A DNA stretch of 64,000 bases from Dictyostelium firmibasis (taxonomy: Eukaryota > Evosea > Eumycetozoa > Dictyosteliales > Dictyosteliaceae): NCBI GenBank assembly GCA_036169595.1, contig CM069767.1:1268501-1332500 (forward strand). Direction: 5' to 3'. Position numbers and translations under genes: made by a program. The notes under the pieces were generated by a model. That model had not been told where the DNA came from and did not search any database. It worked only from the letters and a program-made list of their open reading frames with translations. This document shows, piece after piece, positions 1 through 28,215 of this stretch; position 1 is the stretch's first letter; each line of letters starts with the position of its first letter.

Positions 1-6291
<6,291 letters not shown>

Positions 6292-7594: not shown

Positions 7595-10500
7595 TCAATC
7601 ATTTGAACTTTCATAAATTTTTGATACATAGGATGTTGAAGATTGCTCATAAATTGGATTACTAGAAACATCACCAATGAAAGCACCTTCGTCAAAGAAA
7701 GAGTCAGTTGGTGGCGAGGATTTTTTTATTAATCTCCAAAAACCAACAGCAAGTAGAGCAGCACCAGCAGCACCAGCAGCAATAGCACCAGATAAAATAG
7801 TTTTATTATCAGTGGTATGAGTTGTAATAATAGGATCATTGATTACAATTTTAACATAGCTTGTTACATTTAAATGTGATTGATATCTGACTGCCACTGG
7901 TGCATTATATCCCAAATCATCAATAAATAATTTTAGACTATAGTTTCCACTAATAAAACCAGTGACAGAGATAGTGGATATAGATGAGTTAAGAGATTTC
8001 TTTGAACCCATACATGTAATAATGGCAAAATTTAAATCTGGTTTACAATTTATTGAATGGGAGAAAGATAATTTAACTTGACCATTTGGTACAGCTTTTT
8101 CATTGGATATCTCGTTATCTACTATCGATACAATCATTGAAATATTATTGTTTACAGAATCCGGATCATCCAAGGTTACATTAGTAATGAAGATGGTTAA
8201 ATTAGTTTGACCAATATAAATATTTGAATTTGAACCAATATAGATTTTAGGTGGAAGGTTAATATTGTTTACATTAATTGTTACAGTAATCGTTGAAGAT
8301 ATGGCTCCTTTTTCATCCACAATACTAAAAGGAATACGACAATAACCAATACCAATTGTTCGAGGCGATGGAACAAAAACTACATAAAAATAACCATCAT
8401 TTGAATTTATTTCAACATTTGGGTTGGAACGAGTAATTAATGAACCTAATAAATTTGGAGCACTTGAATTATAGGTATAAAGTGAACCACGTAGTGGAGG
8501 GTTTAAAATTAAACCGACCAATGGAATGGTTTGATTATCAATATCATGACCTAAAAATTTAATTAAAATTGAACTATTGATATTGAAATTAATAGTTGAA
8601 TCACTAATACCATTGGCAAAAACTATTTCTTTTTTACTAGATAAATTATCATTTAAAAGTTTATAGCTTATTAATTCAGCGATTGGAGGTTGATTTACAT
8701 GAATTACATTAACGACAATGGTATATACTTGGGAAACAACCTCACCATCAAAGAGTAGGAATTCAATTTGATCAAAGTTTGGACCAAATTGATTTTTTGG
8801 TGGAGCATATGCAAAGTTGTATGATTTTGAACCAATTCGTTCACTTGGATATTGAGTGATCTCTTTATCTATAATACCCTCTTTACCTAAATTATATGAA
8901 ACCAATAACTTTCCACGACCAGAAAAACTTAAAACTCTTACACTCACAGATAATCCACCCCCTCCCACAACACCTTCAATTGTTAATGGGTAATTGGTAT
9001 TTTGGAATACATTTATTTCACTTTGACCAATGTATACTGGTGGGTTTCTTGATCTAACTTGGAATGACATTGTTACAGAAGAAGCTAAAAGATCTTGTGA
9101 ATCAGCTATTGAATATGAAATTTTATCTAATGGACCTAAATGACCAACTGTATCCCAATTTGAGAGAGTAGCAAATGGTTTGTATGTTAGTGAATCTAAA
9201 GCAAAAAGATTTTTTTCAATTAATTCTTTGGTTAACACAACTTGGTCAGAGGTTTTCAAAAGCTGACCATTAACTGGTAGAGAATATAATTTAACTCTAA
9301 GTAATGATACCTCTGATTCTATATCAGTTCCATTAAAAGAAAAGGAGATAAAGGAATCTTGATCTAATTCAACTGAACCACTTTCACTCTTTGGTGGAGT
9401 ATTAACATAGGTATATTGAATATTACCAATAGTGTCACCAGTTGATAATGAACCAAATGGTAGGGTTAGTTTACTATCGTCTTTACAATTAATAGTGAAT
9501 GTACTTTGGGTATTTGAAAATGGAATAGGTGTAATAATTGATGGGTTCAATAATTTAAAACTAAAACTATTATTAGAAAGCTCGTTTGGAACAGAAGAAA
9601 TTAATAAACCATTGGAATCATACATAGTGAATTGTTTTGGAAGAGCTACCACTGAGCAAAACACATTATCGCCATCTTTATCAGTTGTGGTTAATTTTTG
9701 TTTATCACCTTCGCCACCATTTTCTGAAGTAAATGCATAAACATTAATAAAAACATTTGGTTTATGATTAATTGGATTAACAGTAATGGTTGTTTTTAAA
9801 ATTGGTGATGTTTCTTTAAATGTATCCACAACTTGATATGAATAACTATCAGTGCCAGCGTAGCCTTGATTTGGTCTATAGTAATGATAGAGTGGTACTT
9901 TTCCTTGGGTGGCCAAGGTTGAACCGTTTTCAACAGTAACTAAAATACCATGAGTTGGTGCGGTAGTTATAATAGCATTTAAATTATTATCATTGGAGTT
10001 TGGATTATAATCATCGATATCTGGATCAGTACCAGTTATTTGGTGTACAGTAGAATCTAAATAATCTTGATAGCAAGAGTAATTTGGAATAGCAGTGGCA
10101 ACAGGTGGACTATTTGCACGATTTCCGACAATACTTATTGTGACTGTTGCTTGATTTGATTCTAAACCTTGATTATCAGTTGATGTGAATGAAATCGAGG
10201 CATAGTTTGAGACTGCTGCAGGTTCATAATTAACATAACAGATCGAGATGCTAGCTTTATTATTGATGTATGAAGTCTTTGGATATTGTTTAACATCTGT
10301 AACATTATTAAAATCAGCAGACCCAGCAGCACATAAACAACCATTGGTAGCACATGTATAGAAGGTACCATTAAAGCCATTGGTTTTTTTAATTGTAAAA
10401 GTTGCAGAAGTTGAATCAAAATCATTTGAATATAAAGTAAAAGAAACATTACCTCTTGGAATAACTGAAACCGACTCTCCTACAGATACAGGCGCTTCAT

Positions 10501-13500
10501 TTTTATGGATTACATTTATAATTAAACTACATGAATCTGAAAGTAAATTAGTGGTATCAATTATTTGGTAACTTATAGATATTGAAATGTTTGATGGGTT
10601 CTTTGTTTGTTGAAAAAAAAGATTTATTTCGTTTTTGAATATTGTCCCCGAAGAGATTTTACTGTTATTATAGGTTAAAATTCCGTATTGCTCCAAGTTT
10701 TCTAATTCCGAGTTTACAAAGAATTTTGCATTTAGTAATGATGAATCATCTTCAAAATCCGATGCAATAAGTGAAAAACGAATAATCTCACCAAATGTAG
10801 ATGAAACCACAGTAGTTCGGCACTCTGGGGGTTGAGGTACTCTGATAATTGAAATTAAAAGTGAACCTGAATCACTTGTCAAGCAACCATCATCAACACT
10901 AAAAGCTACGGATAATGGTTTTAAATAATTTTTATAAGGATAAAAAGTAAATACTTCATCGGCTGGGTATGATTTGGTTTTTTGGGATGAAACATCAATT
11001 CCTTGGCTTGAATTAATTTGACCTTCTGTTTTGGATAAAAATGAAGTAAATTTAAATGTTAAAATATTATTATCAACATCACTTCCTCCCAATTTAAATT
11101 CTTTTTTAGAATTTTGATTACAAGAAAATCCTCCAGAATTAGGGGTTGGAGAATGATTGATACTTAAGTATATTTCAATCCTTTCGAATCCAATCGCTGA
11201 TACTAAAATATATGGTTCAATACTTTCATTACTGGCAAAAGCAAATGAGAGACCATCAATTGAGCTTATAACCTTACTATCAGGATTAATTGGTATTTTG
11301 GGTGGAATCGATTTTAAAAATTGCAATCCATTAGATTTAGTGCTAGATTTAAAGATAATGTTTTGCAAAAGTCCATTACCGAATTCTGTTGAGGATGTTT
11401 CTTTGAAGCCTGATACTAAAGAAGCTTTCCACGATGTCGATGTTGGTGATTTTTTATATACTCCAAAACCACATTTTGATAATAAAGAACTCCAATTGCC
11501 AAGTGCAACATTAATTCCAATAACCAATGGAGCAATTGATCCTTCAATGAATCCACTATTGAAATCATCACTTTCTTTTGATTGTATATCAGTTTTGGAA
11601 ATGATAATCATACTTCTAAAAGAATTTGGTCTCCAACCCAATGGGGTTTTTGCAGCACTAATTGCCCCAGATAAAGATGCTCCTTTTGTAGATGCATTGT
11701 AGCCTCCCCATGTGTTGTTTTCTAACTTTGTTATATAATTTCCATCACCTATTTTTGCCAAATTACCAAACACACCATTAGAATCAATAACTCCTACTCC
11801 AAAAGATATACTTTCTATTGAGAGATCTTCTTTAAGATTAAGTTGGCCCAATTGAGAAAGAATATCTTTATAACTTTTCTCATCTTGATTGATATCAATT
11901 AAAAAGTATATATCAAGTTGTTTGTTTCCAAAAGGAAAATTAATATTGATTGGAACTTCATAGCTTTGATTTTTTCCCAAATATAACCGGAGTTCAACTG
12001 GATTAATAAATGACTGTGATTTAACTGTAGAATTAAGAATACCACTTTGTATTAAACTACAAGACTTACTGTCCGAAATTGAGCAATCGTCGCCAGTCCA
12101 CCCATTATTACAATAGCATTTACCATCTCCCAGTATGCCACTCTTTGGCTTACCATGAATACAACTTGGGACAGGTACACAATCTAAACCATAATATCCA
12201 TTTGAACAATCTAAACAATCACTCTCTGATGTCCAATTTTGTAAACATTTACAAATACCAGATTCTTTATAACCTCCATTTCCACACTCTGGTCTTTCTT
12301 TTTTATTTATAAAAAAAAAAAAATAGAAAAAAAATCTTAGAATATATTTTTTAAAAAAAATTAATATTATTTTCTAATAATAGAATACTTACTAACAACA
12401 AAAGACACCATTGTAGTAACTTCTAGATTAGAATCACTACATGTTATAGCTTTTACATAGGAGCCTTCATTTAAAATCGTAGGAGACCATGATAAAGTTA
12501 GATTGGAGGTTTTTCCTATTTCTTGTTTTATCATTTGAAAACCCAAGGGGAAACCAATAGGTGCAATTGTGGTGTTTTTGTCTGGAAAACTAGTGGAGCA
12601 TGAAACGGTTATTGCATTAGTATAGAAATCACCAACGACAAATGTTTTTACTTCATCAGGTTTAGGTGTTGGAGGATAAATAAAAATGGGCAATGGTGAT
12701 GTACAAGCATTAAGAGTTGTTGAATTAAATTTTTGATCACACTCGATACAATCCCTATTTGCTATACAAGAATTACCCGAGTTTGAACATGACGGATGAC
12801 AATTTCCGGTTTCAGCCACAGAATTCAATAAAAAGTCAATACTAATATATGCACCATCTTTATCAGTAATAACAACTTGGGTACAATAAAGACCTATACT
12901 ATCAGGTTTAAAATGAATTTCTCCTGTTATACTGTTGAGAGAAATTCCAGGAGGTTGGTGCATACCTTCTAACAATTTAAAAACGAGATTTGATGTTTCT
13001 CCATCAGTAGGATTTTGGTCAATAGCAACAACTTTGAAATTATTGTTTTTACCATAATTCACAGGGACAATAGGTTTCATTCCAGATACTGGTGACCAAT
13101 TTATTTTTTGAAATGGGTTTTTATTATCAATCTGAACCAGTGTTTGTAATATCATTGGTTCTCCTTGGTTATTTAATAGAGTCATGATTCTACAACATTC
13201 CCCATATGTTACAGTATAATTTTTTTGGGTCCCAGGTGGTAATGCTGAGTAAGTGTGATATATTTCACCAGTACCATAAGACCAGTCATTCAATAGGTCA
13301 ATACTCACTGGCTTCAACTCTAACCCTCCACCTATTGAATCCCCAAAATCTATATAAATACTCATTGTTGATGGATACATACTGGTTCTATATGCAATAT
13401 CAAATGTAAATTTAATTGTTGAATAATTATCATATGGGCTCCATTTTAATGTTCCAAATCTTAAATGTGACGCTTAAAGAATTAAGGTTAAAAATAAAAT

Positions 13501-13601
13501 ATTAGAAATTTTTAATTTTTTAATAAAAAATATTTTAATTTATTACCATTTGAATTTACAACAAATAAAAATAATAAAAATTTTAATATAAACTTATTCA
13601 T
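7595..13601 (-). CDS. Sib-family integrin-beta-like adhesion receptor, copy 2 (divergent)
   Basis: Full-length Sib receptor of 1945 residues. Inferred exons are 13601-13547 (signal peptide [13 protein letters not shown]...), 13472-12393 and 12297-7595; the intron that splits the N-terminal domain in copies 1, 3 and 4 is absent. Order: SHLRFGT N-terminal domain, Cys-rich segment, EGF-like cysteines (12070-12290), a VWA-type domain with MIDAS-like DINQDE (about 11300-11930), several cadherin-like repeats (motifs [15 protein letters not shown]), a Gly/Ala-rich transmembrane helix (about 7740-7810) and a short cytosolic tail. The tail keeps one NPIY motif but has SKIY where copies 3 and 4 have a second NPLY. 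It is clearly the most diverged of the four genes throughout, including the VWA domain. Family assignment is firm; ligand and expression cannot be read from the sequence. Confidence 0.9.
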
Positions 13602-14280: not shown

Positions 14281-17188
14281 TTAATCGGTATTATCTGATG
14301 CAGATTGATAAAGGGGATTTTCAGCAGCGGTTGCTGATTGTTCGTATAATGGATTAGCGTTGACACCATCACCAAGGAAAGCTGCTTCACTAAAGAATGT
14401 ATCAGTTGGTGGTGCAGCTTTCTTTAATAATTTCCACGCAGCAGCAGCAATTAAAGCAGCACCAGCGGCAGCACCAGCAATAGCACCTGTTAAAACAGTC
14501 TTATTGTTGGTGGTTTGAGTGGTGGTTTCTGGTGCATTAACTTTAATCTCTACATAACCGGTTGCATTTAAATGTGATATATCTCTGACGGCAGCTGGTG
14601 CATTGTAACCTAAATCGTCAACAAAGAGTTTAAGACGATAGTTACCAGCGGTTGAGGCTGTAACAGAGATCGATGTGATAGAATTATTGAGTGCTTGTTT
14701 TGTACCAATACATGAGACTGATGCCAAAGTTTTATCGTAATTACACATTGAACTTTGGGTGAATGAAAGTTGAACGTTAGTGAGAGGTGCAACAATGTCA
14801 TCCTTTTCACCAACGATTGAAACAATAATTGAAACGTTATTGTTTACAGAATCTGGATCATCAAATTGAACACCTGAAACAGAGAGAGTTAAATTGGTTT
14901 GAGTTGTGTAGTTTTTGTTACCAATGAGTACGTATGGTGCAATATTAACAGTATTAACGTTAATTGAGACTAAGGCAGTTGGTGACATAAGACCACCATT
15001 ATCAATCATAACAAATGGTACTTTTGCATACGATTCAGCAGCTGTACCTTTGGTTGGTACAAACACAACATAATAATAACCATCTTTAGGGTTTTGATAA
15101 ACATTTGGGAATGAACGACTAATTAATGCCTTCGATGAGTTTGATGAAGTTGGGTCATAGGTATAGAGTAAACCACGAAGTGGAATATTTAAAACCGATG
15201 AATTTAATGGAGTAACTTGATCGACATCAATATCACTACCAGCGTATTTAATTAAAACTGAAGTATTAGTATTCATATTGATTAATGATGAGTTGCCAAA
15301 TAAGATTTCACTTGAATCTCCATTTAAAATCTTATAACTGATTAACTCGATTGTTGGTGGTTGATTGACATGAATAACATTTACAGTGACGTTGTAAAGT
15401 TCAGAGTAGAGATCGCCATCATAGAGTTTGAAGTAGATGTAATCGAATTTTGGACCATACTTGTTGTGTGGTGGTTTGTATGCGTAGTTGTATGAGGTTG
15501 AACCAGTTTGATCATTTGGATATGATGTGATTTCTTGATCCATTGTACCTTCACTACCCATATTATGAGCGATATAGAAAGTACCATTTCCAGTGAAACT
15601 AATAACTTGAATATTGACTTGTGAACCACCATTTCCAACTTTACCAGTGATAGTTAATGGGTAACGAGTGTTTTGTAATACATCGATTTCTTCTGCACCA
15701 GTGTAAACTGGTGGATTTCTTGGTCTGACACTGAAGTAAATAATATCAGAATCTGATGTAAGACCTTGTGGATCAACTACAGCGTATGAAATTGAATCGA
15801 GTGGACTTTGTTGATCAAAGGTATTCCAATTTGAAAGACCTGCATTTGGTTTGTATGCGAGTTGACTGAGAGTGTATTTGGTTGAGGAGGTATTTAATGA
15901 AGTAAGTTCTTCACCAGTAGAAGTAATTAAAAGTTTACCATTGATTGGTAATGAAAGGATTTTAACTTGAAGATCTGATGATGGTGATTCAATATCTGAA
16001 CCATTGACTGTAAATGATTTAGTGGTATCTTGATCGAGTTGAACTGTACCACCTTGAGAGCTTGGTGGAGTATTGATATAAGTATATTGAACGTTGGCAA
16101 CGACATTACCAGTTGATAATGATCCATATGGGAATGTTAATGCTGTAACATCTTTACAAGAAATGGTGAAAGTACTTGAAACATTGGTGTATGGAGTTGG
16201 TGTAATTGTTGATGGACTTGGGAAATCAAAACTGTATGTATTGCTTTTGAGATCGGTTGGGACAGATGTAATTAAATTACCTTCTGAATCGTACATACTA
16301 ATTTGACTTGGAATTGAGATGACTGAACAAATAACTTTATCACCATCTTTATCACTAGTTGCTAATGTTTGTGTGACACTACCACCAGATTGAGAAGTGA
16401 AGGAATATGAACTAACTACAACGCTTGGTTTATGATTAATTGGATTAATAGTAACAGTTGTAGTTAAAATTGGTGAGGTTGCTTTGAATGTGTCCATAAC
16501 TTGATATGAATAACTATCAGTACCACTATAACCTGGGTTTGGTCTGTAGTAATGATTGAGTGGAGCATTTCCTTGTGTGGCAACAGTTGAACCATTTACA
16601 ACGGTAACTAAAATACCATGAGTTGGTGCAGTGGTAATGATGGCGATTAAATTGTTTACTGGTGGAATTGAGTTTGGATTGTAATCATCGATATCTGGAT
16701 CAGTACCAGTGACTTGGTGTACAGCGGAATCTAAATAATCTTGATAACAAGAATATGGTTGAATTGGAGTGGCAACAGGTGGATTGTTTGCACGATTACC
16801 AACAATATTTACAACTACTGTGACAGAGGTTGACTCTAAACCTTGGTTATCAGTTGATGTGAATGAAATAGAAGCATAGTTTGAAACTGCTGCAGGTTCT
16901 TCATTGAGGAAACAAATTAATTGATTGGCAACTTTATTGGAGTATGAAATTGTTGAATATTGTTTACCATCAGTAATATCGGTACGACCAGCTGATCCTG
17001 TGGCACATAAACAATCACCAGTGGAACATGAATAGAAAGTACCCTTTGCGCCATTGGTAACTTTTTTAATTGTAAATGTTGCAGAAGTTGAATCTGAATC
17101 AGTTGATACTAAAGTTAAAGAAACATTACCTCTTGGAATAACTGAAACTGGTGTGGCGGAAGATGAAACTGGTGCAATATTTGTATGA
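14281..17188. repeat. Direct repeat, unit B (copy 3), partner of 22016-24923
   Basis: The 3' 2.9 kb of sib copy 3 is nearly identical to 22016-24923 of copy 4 at a constant offset of 7735 bases, with no indel at the points checked. Similarity falls abruptly just upstream of the codons for VHTNIAP, near 17188/24923. Confidence 0.9.
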
Positions 17189-20100
17189 ACGAGACTAACT
17201 GTTAATGTACAAGTACTTACTGATAATGCATTTGAACTATCGACAGCTTGGAATGACAATGGAACAGAAACAGCACTAACTGGATTAACAGTTTGTGTGA
17301 AAATGATTGGTGACCCAGTTTTAATTTTAGTTGAGGAAGTAATGGCAACACCGTTATAAGTGAATGTACCATAGGCAGTTAAATCGGTTGGTTTAGTAAA
17401 TACCAAGTTAGTGTTGGTTTGATCCTCGAAATCGGTACCTGTTACATAAATGATAACTTGACTATTTAAAAGTCCTGCTGTTGAGTTACTATTACATGTT
17501 GGTAATTGATTGACTCTATTAATTGTAATTGAAACAGTTGCATAAGTTATACTATCAACACAGCCATCATTGGCAATGAATTTAAGAGTATTTGATGTTA
17601 AATAGTTTGTTGCTGGAGTGTAGGTAAACACTTCAGTTGATGGATAATATATTGATTGAGTTGAAACATCATTTCCATTACTATCGGTAATAACACCAGC
17701 ACCGGTTGGTAAGGTTGAAGTGAATTTAAATGTTAAGATATTTGAATCTGGATCAGTACCTGTCAATTTAAATGTGGAAAAAGAGTTTTGATTTACAGAG
17801 AATGAACTTGAGGTTGCAACTGGTGGACGATTGTAATTGATTGAAATATCCATACGACCATAACCCATTGCCGAGATTGAAGCAACTGGTGATGTAATAG
17901 TAGTACCTGATGGGAGTGATAATTTAAGACCACTGACGGTTTGTTGAGTTGATCCAGTTGTCGATACGGCAACAGTTGATGGGACAGAGGATACAAATGA
18001 TGCACCAGTTGCTGTTAAATCATATTTGTAAACAATTTTTGATAAAACAACTCTTAAACCAACGGTAGCTTTAGCGGCTAAATCAGCAGCGGTTGCGGTT
18101 GAGACGGCACTATAACCAAAACCTGATGATGAAATTGCTGAGGCCCAATTTGGAAGTGATGAAGCACCAAAACCTACGACTACTGGTACAACTGATTTTC
18201 CAACAAAGGCATTGGTAAATGAGGTTACAGCTGCTGACGCAGAGGCATGATCACTATCGGTAATGATAACAATAACTTTGAAAGAACCAGTATTCCAACC
18301 TACTGAAGCCGAAGCTGCTGCAGTTGCGGCTGCAAGTGAATTACCATTAGAAGTTGTGGTGTAAGATGATGGATTATAAAGATTGATACCAGCACCGATA
18401 GCACTACCAATAACTAGTGATGGCGAGAATGTAATTGGAGATGTGGTATAATCACTGAAATAACCAAGACCAAATTGAGCATTTTCACAAACACTGGTGA
18501 AGGAAGAAACTATTGAAGAAACACCCGATTTAATGGTACCGAAGGTATTTGATGATGCAACATTAGTATCAACTAAAACGTACACATCGAGGCTATTAAT
18601 TGGAGTTGGAATACTAACCACTGTTGGTATTTCATAATTTGGAACACTTGTGAGATAAACTTGAGCCTTGGTTGGGTTGATAAATGATGGACTACTATAT
18701 GAGATGGAAAGATTACTATTTACTAAATCACCACAGCTTTGTGAGAAAGATACGCTACAATCAGCACCAGTCCAACCATTGTTACATAAACATTTACCAT
18801 CACCATTTACACCACTATTTGGAACACCGTTTACACAACTTGGTACTGGGTCACAATTTTCACCATAAAAACCATCTTTACATTCGAAACATTGAGATGT
18901 AGGATCCCAATTACCCTTACATTTACAAACGCCAGCATCTTTAATACCACCATTGCCACAATCAGGTTTTGCTAAATAAAAATAATAATAATAAAAATAA
19001 TAATTAGAATCTATATATATATATATAAAATAAAAAACTAATTAATATTTACCAACTAAAATTGTAAATGAACGAACTGAAGAAGTTAAACCAGTTGAAT
19101 CTGAACAAACAGCAGAAACAACATATGAACCAGTATTTGCAGTTGTTGGTTTCCATGATAAGGTTACATTATTTATTTGGCCAGTTACTGGAGTTGTAGT
19201 TGAGATACCAAATGGAAGGTTAGCCAATTGAATGGAAGTAGTTCTGGCAGAAAATGGAGTTCTACATGAGAGAGTTACACTAGTGGTAGAATTAATTGGG
19301 AAACCTTTTGTTTCACCATCATCTGGAGTTGGTGGAGAGACAAAATCTGGTGGGTAATTTGTAGTGGTACAAGTATCGATAGTGGTTGAACCAGAATTGG
19401 TACAACCTTTACATTGAGAGTTTTGGGTACAAGCTGTACCAGAGTTTGTACAAGTGGAATCGCAAATACCATTTTCAGTGACAGATTGAAGAATAAAATC
19501 TACGACGATATAGGCTTTATTTGAATCTTCGATATAAATTTGTGTAGAGTAAAGACCAACAGAGGTTGGAAGGAAATAACAGTTACCAGTAGAATCAATG
19601 GTCATACCACTTGGTTGAGTCATTGAATAAACGGTTGAGAATTTAAAAGCGAGGGCTGATGATTGGCCAGGTTGTACATTTTGATCGGAGGCAATGACAC
19701 GGAAGTTATTGTTTTTACCATATTTAACTTGAACAATTGGAACCATACCAGATACTGGTGGCCAATTTACTGCTGATAAGGCATTTTTATTATCAATTTG
19801 AACACTGGTTGTAATATTCCAATATCCACCTGCATTATTAATAAGTGAACCAATTCTACAACAATCGGTAAAAATGGCTATATAAGTTCCAATAGTACCA
19901 GATGCTTGTGTTGGATAGGTTTTAGTCACTGTATATGAACCGGTGAACCAATCATTGGTAGTATCAAAACTAGTTACTGTTACGTATACAGAAACTGTTG
20001 ATGAACCATCACCATAGTTTAAACTACCGACATTGACTGAATCACCAATCTTGATGGAAGATGCTGTGGAATAGAAAAATGTAGTTCTATATGCAAAATT

Positions 20101-20454
20101 TGATGTAAATTTAATTGACTATATAAAAAAAAATATATAAAAAAATAAATAAATAAAAAATTAAAAAAGATATTAAAAAAAAATATATAAGTATTAATTC
20201 TTTTAGATAATAATATTGATCCAGTTAAAATCGTACATTATATGTAGTTTGAGGTTGGTAAGAAATTGTACCAAAACGGAAATGTGATGCTTTAAATTGT
20301 GAAAAAATAATTAGTAAACTAATTTTTTTTTTTTTTTTTTTGTGATTTTTTTGTTTTTTTTATTTTTTTTTATTTTTTTTTTTGTTTTTTTATTTTTTTA
20401 TTTTTTTTTTTTGGACAAGGTTGTCGTTTTGGTTAAAAATTCTTTTTTTTTCCG

Positions 20455-20487
<33 letters not shown>

Positions 20488-20588
20488 AAATTTAATTAAA
20501 TTCTAAATTATTTGATTACTTAAAACTTACCTTCAATTAAATAAAAAAGAGCTAAGAAAACAAATAAAATTTTAATAAATTTATTCAT
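14281..20588 (-). CDS. Sib-family integrin-beta-like adhesion receptor, copy 3 (mosaic)
   Basis: Complete Sib receptor, 1955 residues. Inferred exons are 20588-20531, 20289-20237, 20118-19053 and 18971-14281; the phases (1, 0, 1) agree with copy 1. Seen: signal peptide ending in FYLIEG, SHFRFGTISY domain, Cys motif, EGF-like repeats (18720-18970), VWA domain with DTNVASS and a later TDSDH (about 18000-18600), cadherin/tandem-95-like repeats, a Gly/Ala-rich membrane segment GAIAGAAAGAALIAAAAW (about 14425-14495), basic LLKKAAPPTD, then two NPLY motifs near the C-terminus (14300-14350). In known Sib proteins this tail recruits talin and couples adhesion to actin. The 3' half is nearly identical to copy 4 and most of the 5' half to copy 1, so the gene looks like a product of recombination between neighbours. 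Intron 2 uses a slightly unusual GTACGA donor. Confidence 0.92.
17563..18473. repeat. Direct repeat, unit A (copy 3), partner of 3160-4070
   Basis: Second member of the near-identical pair. A further matching block follows at 18583-18943 (against 4180-4540), separated by a diverged stretch that encodes the start of the VWA domain. Confidence 0.85.
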
Positions 20589-22015: not shown

Positions 22016-24923
22016 TTAATCGGTATTCTCAGATGCAGATTGGTAAAGTGGATTTTCAGCAGCGGTTGCTGATTGTTCGTATAATGGATTAGCGTTGACA
22101 CCATCACCAAGGAAAGCTGCTTCACTAAAGAATGTATCAGTTGGAGGTGCAGCTTTTCTTAATAATTTCCATAAACCAGCGGCAAGAAGTGCGGCACCAG
22201 CGGCAGCACCAGCAATAGCACCTGTTAAAACAGTCTTATTGTTGGTGGTTTGAGTGGTGGTTTCTGGTGCATTAACTTTAATCTCTACATAACCGGTTGC
22301 ATTTAAATGTGATATATCTCTGACGGCAGCTGGTGCATTGTAACCTAAATCGTCAACAAAGAGTTTAAGACGATAGTTACCAGCGGTTGAGGCTGTAACA
22401 GAGATCGATGTGATAGAACTATTGAGTGCTTTCTTTGTACCAATACATGAGACTGATGCTAAAGTTTTATCGTAATTACACATTGAACTTTGGGTGAATG
22501 AAAGTTGAACGTTAGTGAGAGGTGCAACAATGTCATCCTTTTCACCAACGATTGAAACAATAATTGAAACGTTATTGTTTACAGAATCTGGATCATCAAA
22601 TTGAACACCTAAAACAGAGAGAGTTAAATTGGTTTGAGTTGTGTAGTTTTTGTTACCAATGAGTACGTATGGTGCAATATTAACAGTATTAACGTTAATT
22701 GAGACTAAGGCAGTTGGTGACATAAGACCACCATTATCAATCATAACAAATGGTACTTTTGCATACGATTCAGCAGCTGTACCTTTGGTTGGTACAAACA
22801 CAACATAATAATAACCATCTTTAGGGTTTTGATAAACTTTTGGGAATGAACGACTAATTAATGCCTTCGATGAGTTTGATGCAGTTGGGTCATAGGCATA
22901 GAGTAAACCACGAAGTGGAACATTCGAAACCAATGAATTTAATGGAGTAACTTGATCGACATCAATATCACTACCAGCGTATTTAATTAAAACTGAAGTA
23001 TTAGTATTCATATTGATTAATGATGAATTGCCAAATAAGATTTCACTTGAATCACCATCTAAAATCTTATAACTGATTAGCTCGATTGTTGGTGGTTGAT
23101 TGACATGAATAACATTTACAGTGACGTTGTAAAGTTCAGAGTAGAGATCGCCATCATAGAGTTTGAAGTAGATGTAATCGAATTTTGGACCATACTTGTT
23201 GTGTGGTGGTTTGTATGCGTAGTTGTATGAGGTTGAACCAGTTTGATCATTTGGATATGATGTGATTTCTTGATCCATTGTACCTTCACTACCCATATTG
23301 TGAGCGATATAGAAAGTACCATTTCCAGTGAAACTAATAACTTGAATATTGACTTGTGAACCACCATTTCCAACTTTACCAGTGATAGTTAATGGGTAAC
23401 GAGTGTTTTGTAATACATCGATTTCTTCTGCACCAGTGTAAACTGGTGGATTTCTTGGTCTGACACTAAAGCTAATGATTTCGGAATCAGATGAAAGACC
23501 TTGTGGATCAACTACAATATATGAAATTGAATCGAGTGGACTTTGTTGATCAAAGGTATTCCAATTTGAAAGACCTGCATTTGGTTTGTATGAGAGTTGA
23601 CTGAGAGTGTATTTGGTTGAGGAGGTATTTAATGAAGTAAGTTCTTCACCAGTAGAAGTAATTAAAAGTTTACCATTGATTGGTAATGAAAGGATTTTAA
23701 CTTGAAGATCTGATGATGGTGATTCAATATCTGAACCATTGACTGTAAATGATTTAGTGGTATCTTGATCGAGTTGAACTGTGCCACCTTGAGAGCTTGG
23801 TGGAGTATTGATATAAGTATATTGAACGTTGGCAACGACATTACCAGTTGATAATGATCCATATGGGAATGTTAATGTTGTAACATCTTTACAAGAAATG
23901 GTGAAAGTACTTGAAACATTGGTGTATGGAGTTGGTGTAATTGTTGATGGACTTGGGAAATCAAAACTGTATGTATTGCTTTTGAGATCGGTTGGGACAG
24001 ATGTAATTAAATTACCTTCTGAATCGTACATACTAATTTGACTTGGAATTGAGATGACTGAACAAATAACTTTATCACCATCTTTATCGCTAGTTGCTAA
24101 TGTTTGTGTGACACTACCACCAGATTGAGAAGTGAAGGAGTATGAACTAACTACAACGCTTGGTTTATGATTAATTGGGTTAATAGTAACGGTTGTAGTT
24201 AAAATTGGTGAGGTTGCTTTGAATGTGTCCATAACTTGATATGAATAACTATCAGTGCCACTATAACCTGGGTTTGGTCTGTAGTAATGATTGAGTGGAG
24301 CATTTCCTTGTGTGGCAACAGTTGAACCATTTACAACGGTAACTAAAATACCATGAGTTGGTGCAGTGGTAATGATGGCGATTAAATTGTTTACTGGTGG
24401 AATTGAGTTTGGATTGTAATCATCAATATCTGGATCAGTACCAGTGACTTGGTGTACAGCGGAATCTAAATAATCTTGATAACAAGAATATGGTTGAATT
24501 GGAGTGGCAACAGGTGGATTGTTTGCACGATTACCAACAATATTTACAACTACTGTGACAGAGGTTGAATCTAAACCTTGGTTATCAGTTGATATGAATG
24601 AAATAGAAGCATAGTTTGAAACTGCTGCAGGTTCTTCATTGAGGAAACAAATTAATTGATTGGCAACTTTATTGGAGTATGAAATTGTTGAATATTGTTT
24701 ACCATCAGTAATATCGGTACGACCAGCTGATCCTGTGGCACATAAACAATCACCAGTGGAACATGAATAGAAAGTACCCTTTGCGCCATTGGTAACTTTT
24801 TTAATTGTAAATGTTGCAGAAGTTGAATCTGAATCAGTTGATACTAAAGTTAAAGAAACATTACCTCTTGGAATAACTGAAACTGGTGTGGCGGAAGATG
24901 AAACTGGTGCAATATTTGTATGA
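22016..24923. repeat. Direct repeat, unit B (copy 4), partner of 14281-17188
   Basis: Second member of the 2.9-kb near-identical pair. A few small patches differ, for example around 23465-23520 and in the membrane-helix codons at 22160-22200. Confidence 0.9.
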
Positions 24924-27900
24924 ACAAGTTTGACTGTTAATGTACAAGTGCTTGTTGAGATTGCACCGGAACTATCGACAGCTTGAAATGTGACTGGAAC
25001 ATCAACATTGTTAGTTGGGTTAACGGTTTGTTTAAATATGATTTCAGTGCCGTTTGAGATTGAAGTTGTCGAGGTAACGGCAACACCATTATAAGTGAGT
25101 GAACCATAAGCAGTTAAATCGGTTGGTTTGATAAAGACAAGTTTTGGGGAAACATCTTCGAAATCATCAGCATTTAAAAAAAATTTAAAATCAACATTTA
25201 TGGTTGGTGAGATTGTTTTCTGACTACAGGTTGGTAATTGATTGACTCTAATAATAGTGATTGAAACAGTTGAAGGGGCACTATCAACACAACCATCATT
25301 AGCAATAAAATTAATGGAAATCGGAGATAAATAGTTTGTTGCTACAGAGAATTTAAATACTTCAGTTGAAGGATAGTATTTGTTTTGTGTTGAAACATCT
25401 ATATTATTGCTATCAGTAATAATACCGCCTGATAATAAGGTTGAAGTGAATTTAAATGTTAAAATATTAAAATCTGGATCAGTACCTGTCAATTTAAATG
25501 TAGTGAAAGAGTTTTGGTTGACAGAGAATGCACTTGCAGTAGCAACTGGTGGACGATTGTAATTGAGTGAAAAATCAGTTTGACCAAAACCAATTGCCGA
25601 GATTGAAGCAACTGGTGAAGCAATTGCAGTATTTGTTGGTTTGGTTAAAATAAGACCAGTAACATTTTTGACAGTATCAGATGTGGTTGAAACTGCAATA
25701 TCTGATGGTGTTGTTTTTACAAATGATGCACCGTTGGTTGTATTATCAGTTTTATAAACGACGGTTGATAAAACACTCTTTAAACCGGCAACAGCTTTGG
25801 CTGAAATATCACTGGCTGTTGCAAGAGATACGGCACTATAACCAAAATCAGCGGTTGAGATTGCTGATGCCCAATTTGGAATTGATGAAGCACCAAAACC
25901 AATGACCACTGGTGCGATTGAATTTGAAACGTATGCACTAATGAATGAATTTACGAAGGTAGAGTTTGAAGAGTGATCACTATCGGTAATGATTACAATT
26001 GATTTGAAGGAACCAGTATTCCAACCATTTGCATTTGAAGCTGCACCAGTTGAACCCAAAAGTGAATTACCACTTGAGTTTGAAGAGTATGATGATACTG
26101 AATAACTGTTAATAGTGTTTACAATATTACTACCAATGATTGTACCAGGAGCGAAATTAAAACCACTGGTAAGAGCATCACTAAAATAACCAATACCAAA
26201 TTGAGTGGTTTCACAAATACCCTTTGAAACATCGTTGACAAATGTGGAAATACTTGATTGAACGATACCAAACAAAGTGGATGTAGCAACGTTAACATCG
26301 ACTAAAACGAAAACATCAACTTTAGATAATTTTAGTGGAACATTTAATGAGGTACTTAAAGCAAAATCACTTTCGATATATAATTGAACTTTTGATGGAT
26401 TGACGTAGAATGATGGAACAGTTGTGGAAATGAGTACAGTGTTTTTCATGTCTTTGCAGCTTTGAGATAATGGGATATCACATTTACTACCACTGTAACC
26501 ATTGATACACATACATTTACCATCACCCAAAATACCTTCATTTGGAACACCTTTGTCGCATGGTGGAGTTGGGTCACAGTTTTGACCATAATAACCGGAA
26601 CTACAATCGAAACAATTTGAATTTGGATCCCATTGGGAACCTACACATTCACATTTACCAGTTACATCATTTTTTTTACCATTACCACATTCTGGTTTGG
26701 CAATGAAAATTGTGAAAGAACGAGAGTTTGAGGTTAAACCATTTGAATCATAACAAAAGATTGATGTTACATAAACACCAACATTTGCAGCTACTGGAGT
26801 CCAAGTGAGAGTATTTGTAACAACACCTTGAGTTGAGGTGCCTTGTGCTAAATTTGCACCAGATGGGACGTTAGCAGCTTGAATACCAACGGTTCTAGTT
26901 GAATAGTTTGATTTACATTGAAGATTGATAGTATTTGATTGACCGACAGTGAATGGAATTAAGGCGTTATCTTCTGGTGTTGGCGAAACAAAGAAAGGTG
27001 GATAGTTTGTTGTTGAGCAAGTGTTAACAGTTGTTGAGGCAGAGTTTGCACAATTTTTACAATCAGTGTTAGCATTACATGTTGCACCACTATTGGAACA
27101 ACTTGGATCACATTTACCTGGTTCGGCAATTGACTCTAAAATGAAATCTACTACAGAGTAGGCAGGTGGGACAGCATCATCTGTAATATAAATTTGAGTG
27201 GAGTAAAGACCAATTTGAGTTGGTAAAAAGTAAACATGACCAGTACTATTAATTTTCATACCGGATGGTTGGGTCATTGGATAAACAGTTGAGAAAGAGA
27301 ATGTAAGTTTGTCATTAACATTTGGATCACTAGCAATAACACGGAAATTATTGTTTTTGTTGGCGATAACTTGAACAATTGGTAACATACCAGATACTGG
27401 TGAATAGTTTACAGATGGCCAAGTATTATAGTCGAGGTAAACGCTACTGGTAATATTCCAATCGGAATCTTTATTATTGAGAAGGGTACTAATTCTACAA
27501 CATGATGTAAACATGGCAAGATATTGTTTAGTAGTATTTTTGGCCAAAGCAGTATAGGTTTTGGTGAAGATAAATTGGCCTGAGAACCAATCATTCTTGA
27601 TATCAAAACTAGTTACTGATGCTGTTACACTTGTTGATGTACCATCACCAAAACTTAATGCACCAAGATTAATCTTTTCTCCAACGATAATATCTGAGGT
27701 GCTTGTTTTAAAATAAGTTGTTCTAAATGCAAAATTAGTTGTAAATTTAATAATCTATAAAAACAATTTCAATTAATAATCAATAAAATTTTATATTTTA
27801 AAACGAAATAAAAATAACAATTAGGTCTTACATTGTGTGCGGTTGTTGGCGCCCATGAAACACTGCCAAATCTAAAATGAGTTGCTAAAAATTGAAATAA

Positions 27901-28215
27901 GGAATTAATAATTTTAAAAATTATAATTTTGGTTGTAATAAAGTTAGAAAAACAAAAAAAAAAAACAAAAAAAATAAAAAAAATTATAGTGAACCAACAA
28001 AGGCGCCACACAATTTATAATTTTTCTTTTTTTTTTTTTTTTTATTTTTTTTTTTTTTTTTATTTACAGAATGATGTAAATTTACCGCAAGGTATTTTTT
28101 TTTTTTTTTTTTTTTTTTTTTAATCTTTTTCTTTTTCTTTATAAATTCAAATCTTACCTTCCGTTACACAAAATACAGCAAGCAATACAAATAAAAGTTT
28201 GAATAAATTATTCAT
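22016..28215 (-). CDS. Sib-family integrin-beta-like adhesion receptor, copy 4
   Basis: Complete Sib receptor, 1949 residues. Inferred exons are 28215-28158, 27884-27832 and 27754-22016. The intron that in copies 1-3 lies just before the EGF-like region is absent: the frame reads through RSFTIFIAKPECGNG without a break. Seen: signal peptide MNNLFKLLFVLLAVF, THFRFGSVSW domain, Cys cluster (about 27030-27130), EGF-like cysteines (26440-26700), VWA domain with DVNVATS (about 25760-26320), cadherin/tandem-95-like repeats, Gly/Ala-rich transmembrane helix (about 22160-22235), and two NPLY motifs in the tail ending ASENTD. The 3' 2.9 kb aligns with copy 3 without an indel at the points checked. Expected role, from the family: adhesion and phagocytic receptor linked to talin at the plasma membrane. 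Confidence 0.92.

Follow-up and report, generated by a model that had tools for sequence, protein, structure and literature searches.

Introduction

Interlocus gene conversion among tandem paralogues leaves a patchwork of tracts in which neighbors differ little at silent sites, with flanks that are not exchanged. Here we describe a Sib gene (integrin-beta-like) of Dictyostelium firmibasis that bears this pattern. It is the third of four tandem Sib genes, copies 1 to 4, in a 64,000-nucleotide (nt) stretch of contig CM069767.1 (assembly GCA_036169595.1, positions 1,268,501 to 1,332,500), hereafter the window. Much of the 5′ half of copy 3 resembles copy 1, the 3′ half matches copy 4 almost exactly, and we put the probability that repeated interlocus gene conversion among the tandem Sib genes explains this mosaic at about 0.88.

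Two of the closest described systems are in Dictyostelium. Five Sib genes are reported in D. discoideum, with talin A binding by the tail reported for SibA to SibE (PMC9197732), and five glycines are reported in the membrane helix of SibA–E (PMC4510845). In the available part of PMC9197732, mosaic structure is not described for the D. discoideum family. Mosaic members that arose by recombination are known from another surface adhesion family, the tgrB/tgrC allorecognition genes, with 12 and 10 GARD sites (PMC12324515). At the tgrB/tgrC locus, whole genes have been duplicated, inverted, and lost as well, whereas the Sib tracts reported here lie inside intact genes of one genome.

Copy 3 Switches Partner Between Its Halves

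An Ig_SibA family search of the assembly (31,455,843 bases, 12 contigs) returned six Sib genes. The four in the window are open spliced frames on the minus strand (Table 1), so that the 5′ end of each gene has the higher coordinates. Copies 5 and 6 lie on the same contig, about 90 kb off on the opposite strand and about 1.07 Mb distant, respectively; their gene models are without first exons.

We compared all six genes in a protein-guided codon alignment of 6,060 columns and measured identity in 150-column windows. Copy 3 is at least 0.88 identical to copy 1 in 14 of the 18 windows down to position 17500 (0.69 to 0.78 in the other four) and 0.91 to 1.00 identical to copy 4 in all 20 windows listed from 17232 to 14344, whereas identity between copies 1 and 4 stays between 0.52 and 0.88 all along. 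Uniform synonymous divergence was looked for; instead, the partner at synonymous sites switches between the halves for both pairs. Nei–Gojobori synonymous divergence (dS) in the 5′ half (20118–17500) is 0.221 for copies 1 and 3, 0.824 for 3 and 4, and 0.785 for 1 and 4; the corresponding values in the 3′ half (17190–14284) are 0.678, 0.043, and 0.706. Over the latter interval, 56 of 2,907 nt distinguish copies 3 and 4, with 0 gaps.

Individual sites give the same partition. Copies 1 and 4 differ at 1,673 sites, where copy 3 agrees with copy 1 at 714, with copy 4 at 856, and with neither at 103. With these 103 left out, copy-1-like and copy-4-like informative sites number 651/92 above 17500, 33/46 in 17201–17500, and 30/718 at or below 17200. 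The longest descent of a walk along the sites is 701, compared with at most 194 in 20,000 permutations and at most 245 in 200 recombination-free simulations on the single best tree; in the same simulations, the single-breakpoint maximum χ2, which is 1013 for the data, did not exceed 18.9.

Tree comparisons reject one history for both halves. Approximately unbiased (AU) tests in IQ-TREE, run per segment over all 105 unrooted six-gene topologies, retained 9 trees for 20118–17500 and 10 for 17190–14644. In the first segment, the best tree with copy 3 beside copy 4 has P = 0.0003 (largest P among all such trees, 0.0017); in the second, copy 1 beside copy 3 fails even in the best such tree (P = 2e-29). 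When the whole gene is used, the tree groups copies 3 and 4 with support 100. A DNA search with 14644–17190 found no further long match above 73% identity.

These results uphold the original prediction that copy 3 is a mosaic, through the dS partner switch, the AU tests, and the maximum χ2 alike. The ungapped correspondences from which it was drawn are also reproduced: the offset of 7735 to copy 4 holds at 14284 and 17188 with no gap between, and the offsets to copy 1 hold at 17563, 18473, 18583, and 18943 (14403) and at 19053 and 20118 (14406).

Tracts, Patches, and an Unexchanged Island

Exchanged tracts were delimited with a permutation test (1,000 permutations, 15 pairs). It marks the four tracts between copies 1 and 3 listed in Table 1, and two between copies 3 and 4, at 17190–14460 and 14404–14315. 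With third positions alone, three 1–3 tracts and one 3–4 tract persist.

Table 1. Sib genes of the window and segments of copy 3; fractions are fourfold-site differences between copies 1 and 3.
Feature	Positions	Strand	Remarks
Sib copy 1	1..6291, end at −113	−	Partner of the 5′ tracts; final 114 nt past the window start, from the adjoining contig
Sib copy 2	7595..13601	−	Open spliced gene
Sib copy 3	14281..20588	−	Exons 20588–20531, 20289–20237, 20118–19053, 18971–14281; 1955-residue protein
Sib copy 4	22016..28215	−	Partner of the 3′ tract; without intron 3
Tract common to copies 3 and 4	14281..17190	−	Copy 4 22016–24925; residues 987–1955; cadherin-like repeat start to stop codon
Nine successive copy-1-like informative sites	14438..14458	−	Membrane helix, surrounded by the copy-4-like tract; position read off the alignment
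Unexchanged island	17191..17498	−	308 nt; about residues 884–986; roughly one repeat
Tract common to copies 3 and 1	17499..18479	−	Most of vWA and first repeats beyond; 12/187
Less similar patch	18480..18565	−	Inside vWA (488–772); 7/8; P = 6e-7 vs. the two adjoining tracts pooled
Tract common to copies 3 and 1	18566..19150	−	Intron 3, EGF-like part, vWA start; 10/76
Less similar patch	19151..19305	−	Third Ig-like domain; weakest patch; nucleotide identity 0.69 in 19296–19162
Tracts common to copies 3 and 1	19306..19822 (19822–19748, 19714–19306)	−	Second Ig-like domain; 6/81
Less similar patch	19823..20118	−	Residues 38–136, most of the SIBA-E N-terminal domain (39–146); 14/34; P = 4e-5 vs. 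the next tract

The two halves differ in texture. Fourfold differences between copies 1 and 3 are uneven over nine 300-column windows (χ2 = 51, 8 degrees of freedom, P = 2.5e-8), too much so for a single 1–3 event over the whole 5′ half, and Fisher tests of fourfold differences set the patches at 20118–19823 and 18565–18480 apart from tracts (Table 1). The original prediction had two halves joined: The change of partner stands, and the single 5′ piece gives way to three or four tracts with less similar patches between them. In the 3–4 tract, no unevenness of fourfold differences was found (χ2 = 9.4, P = 0.31), the counts there being very small: 6/425 in 17190–14644 and 6/63 in 14643–14284.

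The last 360 nt are unusually alike in the 1–3 and 1–4 pairs as well, with fourfold differences of 7/52 and 7/50, compared with 100/279 and 105/280 upstream (P about 0.001). The run of copy-1-like sites in the membrane helix accompanies a difference in composition: By helix limits set by eye, copies 1, 3, and 4 have 3, 3, and 4 glycines, compared with the five reported for SibA–E. Chimeras made in D. discoideum indicate that glycine number influences Phg1A-dependent surface targeting (PMC4510845); by analogy, a sorting effect of the copy 3 helix change is possible.

Between the copy-1-like and copy-4-like blocks lies the island, which immediately precedes a Cadherin_4 match (981–1039). Its fourfold differences are 7/25 to copy 1 and 10/31 to copy 4, with 8/26 between copies 1 and 4, and the AU test for 17499–17215 retains 78 of the 105 trees. 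The island is thus an old divergence, equal from copies 1 and 4, and no simple junction. We considered whether selection had made the island evolve fast and rejected this: Its fourfold sites are about as diverged as those of unexchanged copies elsewhere, and it is therefore old, not merely selected. A switch of similarity between 17190 and 17560 had been predicted correctly as to position; as a simple junction it fails, since the interval is anciently diverged from both partners.

Flanks and Introns Argue for Conversion

Gene conversion and unequal crossing over had both been proposed. By unequal crossing over between misaligned copies, copy 3 would be a fusion of a copy-1-like promoter and 5′ half with a copy-4-like 3′ half and 3′ flank. 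The Sib genes of the cluster stand in tandem and in the same orientation, and the main switch falls near the middle of the gene, as a fusion would have it. A crossover would bring flanks along at tract-level identity, which is why we disfavor it: The near-identity of copies 3 and 4 ends at the stop codon. Over the final 30 coding nt and the 250 nt that follow, about 96% identity is predicted from the dS of 0.043; copy 3 is 63% identical to copy 4 there, with 84 gap columns, and 57% identical to copy 1. Local alignment of 500-nt flanks gave scores between 52 and 82 in the six pairings among copies 1, 3, and 4; a 500-nt exon pair of copies 3 and 4 inside the tract reached 945. At the other end, exon 1 of copy 3 together with 120 nt upstream shares 57% identity with copy 1 and 68% with copy 4, the exon itself being nearer copy 4, and intron 2 shares 66% with copy 1 and 60% with copy 4 (gapped, AT-rich alignments here as at the 3′ end); exon 2 matches copy 1 at 41 of 53 positions and copy 4 at 31 of 53. 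The unexchanged island at the presumed joint and the less similar patches inside the 5′ half also speak against a fusion, which we regard as very improbable. Of the two processes originally proposed, then, conversion finds support and crossing over or fusion does not, near-identity stopping before the flanks and an island separating the blocks. Copy 3 is not a chimera with both parents' outer flanks. As in interlocus gene conversion, its partners differ along the gene at silent sites, and recipient flanks are kept, some pairs retaining a faint similarity beyond that of shuffles.

The template could in principle have been reverse-transcribed mRNA instead of chromosomal DNA. The 3–4 tract lies inside a single exon, intron 3 is exactly lost from copy 4, and conversion by complementary DNA (cDNA) is the favored route of intron loss in Dictyostelium (PMC4683709). 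The 1–3 tracts cross intron 3, however, which copies 1 and 3 have in common and which scores 84 between them, compared with at most 59 in 200 shuffles; the template there was therefore DNA, not cDNA. The 3–4 tract ends at the stop codon, moreover, and an mRNA would include the 3′ untranslated part. We hold an mRNA template to be unlikely, if a little less so than a fusion.

An assembly or polishing artefact is the least probable of the alternatives. The published assembly of strain TNS-C-14 (31.5 Mb, 12 contigs, 199× Nanopore and 540× Illumina coverage) was polished with short reads (PMC11193728), and mis-mapping of 150-base reads is conceivable in a 2.9-kb block that is 98% identical. The 56 differences between the two blocks nonetheless mean that neither block can be a collapsed version of its counterpart. 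Edits by NextPolish number 42,885 over 31.5 Mb, on average about 1.4 per kb, which puts a change from 70% to 98% identity out of reach unless edits clustered here, and reads under 1 kb were discarded from the assembly, with longer ones preferred (PMC11193728). As judged from the assembly sequence, read mis-mapping could not produce the older pattern of the 5′ half, where identity is about 90%.

Against repeated conversion as the explanation, several observations have to be weighed. Downstream flanks of copies 3 and 4 score 62 (at most 52 in 60 shuffles), upstream flanks of copies 1 and 3 score 73 (at most 67 in 60 shuffles), and downstream flanks of copies 1 and 2 score 90 (shuffles at most 74); such weak similarity upstream for 1–3 and downstream for 3–4 would also suit a fusion. 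Intron 1 has no clear partner: Pairs 1–3, 1–4, and 3–4 score 106, 82, and 80, against maxima of 105, 81, and 82 in 200 shuffles, so that the first two are barely above them. Exon 1 of copy 3 matches copy 4 at 43 of 58 positions and copy 1 at 35 of 58. The AU test retains 24 trees for the final 360 nt and still allows copy 1 beside copy 3 there (P = 0.41), and the patch at 19305–19151 rests on 3 differences in 19 fourfold sites. The tract test is our own permutation version of the GENECONV idea, as distinct from GENECONV or GARD themselves. With all sites it also marks short pieces between copies 1 and 4 (four) and for pairs 3–5, 3–6, and 4–6 (one each), and is therefore responsive to conserved stretches too. 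Finally, the comparison is among genes of one species' genome.

Order and Direction of the Transfers

The 3–4 tract (dS 0.043) is younger than the 1–3 half overall (dS 0.22), with the 1–3 stretch beside the island young as well (proportion of synonymous differences, 0.04 in 17787–17500). Direction is less constrained. A variant of the conversion account makes copy 4 the recipient of the 3′ tract, so that copy 3 is chimeric in its 5′ half only, and we rate this variant at slightly below even odds. Taking copy 5 as outgroup gives copy 4 more unique changes than copy 1 in the 5′ half (347 vs. 247, χ2 = 16.8) and no such excess in the 3′ half (235 vs. 275, χ2 = 3.1), as though its 3′ half were foreign. 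With copy 6 as outgroup, however, neither half differs significantly in rate (χ2 = 2.4 and 0.2), and rates specific to domains could give the same pattern. GC content at fourfold sites gave no sign of transfer direction. A transfer of the 3′ tract from copy 3 to copy 4 is about as compatible with these data as one from copy 4 to copy 3.

On the conversion account, the history may be sketched as follows. Copies 1, 3, and 4 would have started as separate genes, about equally diverged. Several, mostly older, transfers would then have made much of the 5′ half alike in copies 1 and 3, and one more recent transfer, of at least about 2.7 kb, would have done the same to copies 3 and 4 in the 3′ half. 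Each would probably have begun with a break repaired from a neighboring copy and proceeded until homology gave out, at the diverged mid-gene repeat or the stop codon, poor homology being the likely barrier. Homology-limited conversion of this kind would account both for the end of the 3–4 tract at the stop codon and for tracts that halt on both sides of the diverged repeat. The resulting copy 3 would combine its own N-terminal domain, a copy-1-like second Ig-like domain and vWA, and one repeat of its own with copy-4-like repeats and tail, the membrane helix carrying copy-1-like residues.

Copy 2 and the Wider Sib Family

Copy 2 is strongly diverged in its 5′ half, and a block at copy 3 coordinates 17148–16430 is near copies 3 and 4 and, in parts, copy 1. 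This block begins no more than about 50 nt from where the 3–4 tract does, and its sequence points to a sharing older than that tract. Between copies 1 and 2, dS falls from 1.36 (5′ half) to 0.81 (3′ half). Copies 2 and 6 form the best grouping in the 5′ half and in 16429–14644; within the 744-nt block, trees uniting them reach P of at most 0.044, and over the whole 3′ half the placement of copy 2 is ambiguous. The evidence for exchange involving copy 2 is weaker than that for copy 3.

The six Sib genes compare with five reported in D. discoideum. Like SibA to SibE, the products have Pfam SIBA-E domains, a vWA domain, cadherin-like repeats, a glycine-containing membrane helix, and NPLY tail motifs. 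SIBA-E-specific domains, vWA, and cadherin-like repeats were matched in copies 3, 4, and 5; in copy 3 the matches are SIBA-E_N, Ig_SIBA-E_2nd, Ig_SIBA-E_3rd, vWA_SIBA-E, Ig_SibA, and Cadherin_4. PF24907, PF24908, PF24910, PF24909, and PF24619 exceed the cut-off in both copies 3 and 4, and the cytoplasmic tails of copies 1, 3, and 4 each carry two NPLY (NPXY) motifs. Intron 3 is present in copies 1, 2, 3, 5, and 6 and exactly absent from copy 4 (coding exon 22016–27754, near 26672–26701); intron 2 is absent from copies 2 and 5. No Sib genes of other Dictyostelium were found in the prokaryote genome contigs searched for host contamination.

Discussion

Copy 3 is a new, clean example, from a family of adhesion receptors, of a known process, gene conversion between tandem paralogues. 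In principle it is the same as interlocus conversion in general; its notable detail is the sharp halt on either side of one repeat. Sib gene conversion was not reported in the titles or abstract openings among the matches listed by our literature search, the primary Sib papers (Cornillon 2006, 2008; Froquet 2012) lying outside that check.

A broader possibility, which we consider doubtful, is standing exchange across the Sib cluster: The helix, the tail, and many repeats would be repeatedly homogenized, while the N-terminal domain, the vWA patch, and the repeat at 17498–17191 escape and diversify, with diverged islands as recurrent tract barriers, a role suggested by the start of the copy 2 block (17148) so near that of the 3–4 tract. 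If this were true, the receptors would recombine specificity with a common talin-linked half. As originally hypothesized, such exchange could shuffle ligand-binding and signaling halves between Sib receptors.

The two halves of copy 3 differ in history, and whole-sequence phylogenies and one-to-one orthology of Sib genes can therefore mislead. The same mosaic provides naturally occurring domain swaps for an integrin-beta-like adhesion receptor, nearly matched proteins in which ligand choice, Phg1A-dependent sorting, and talin coupling may be compared.

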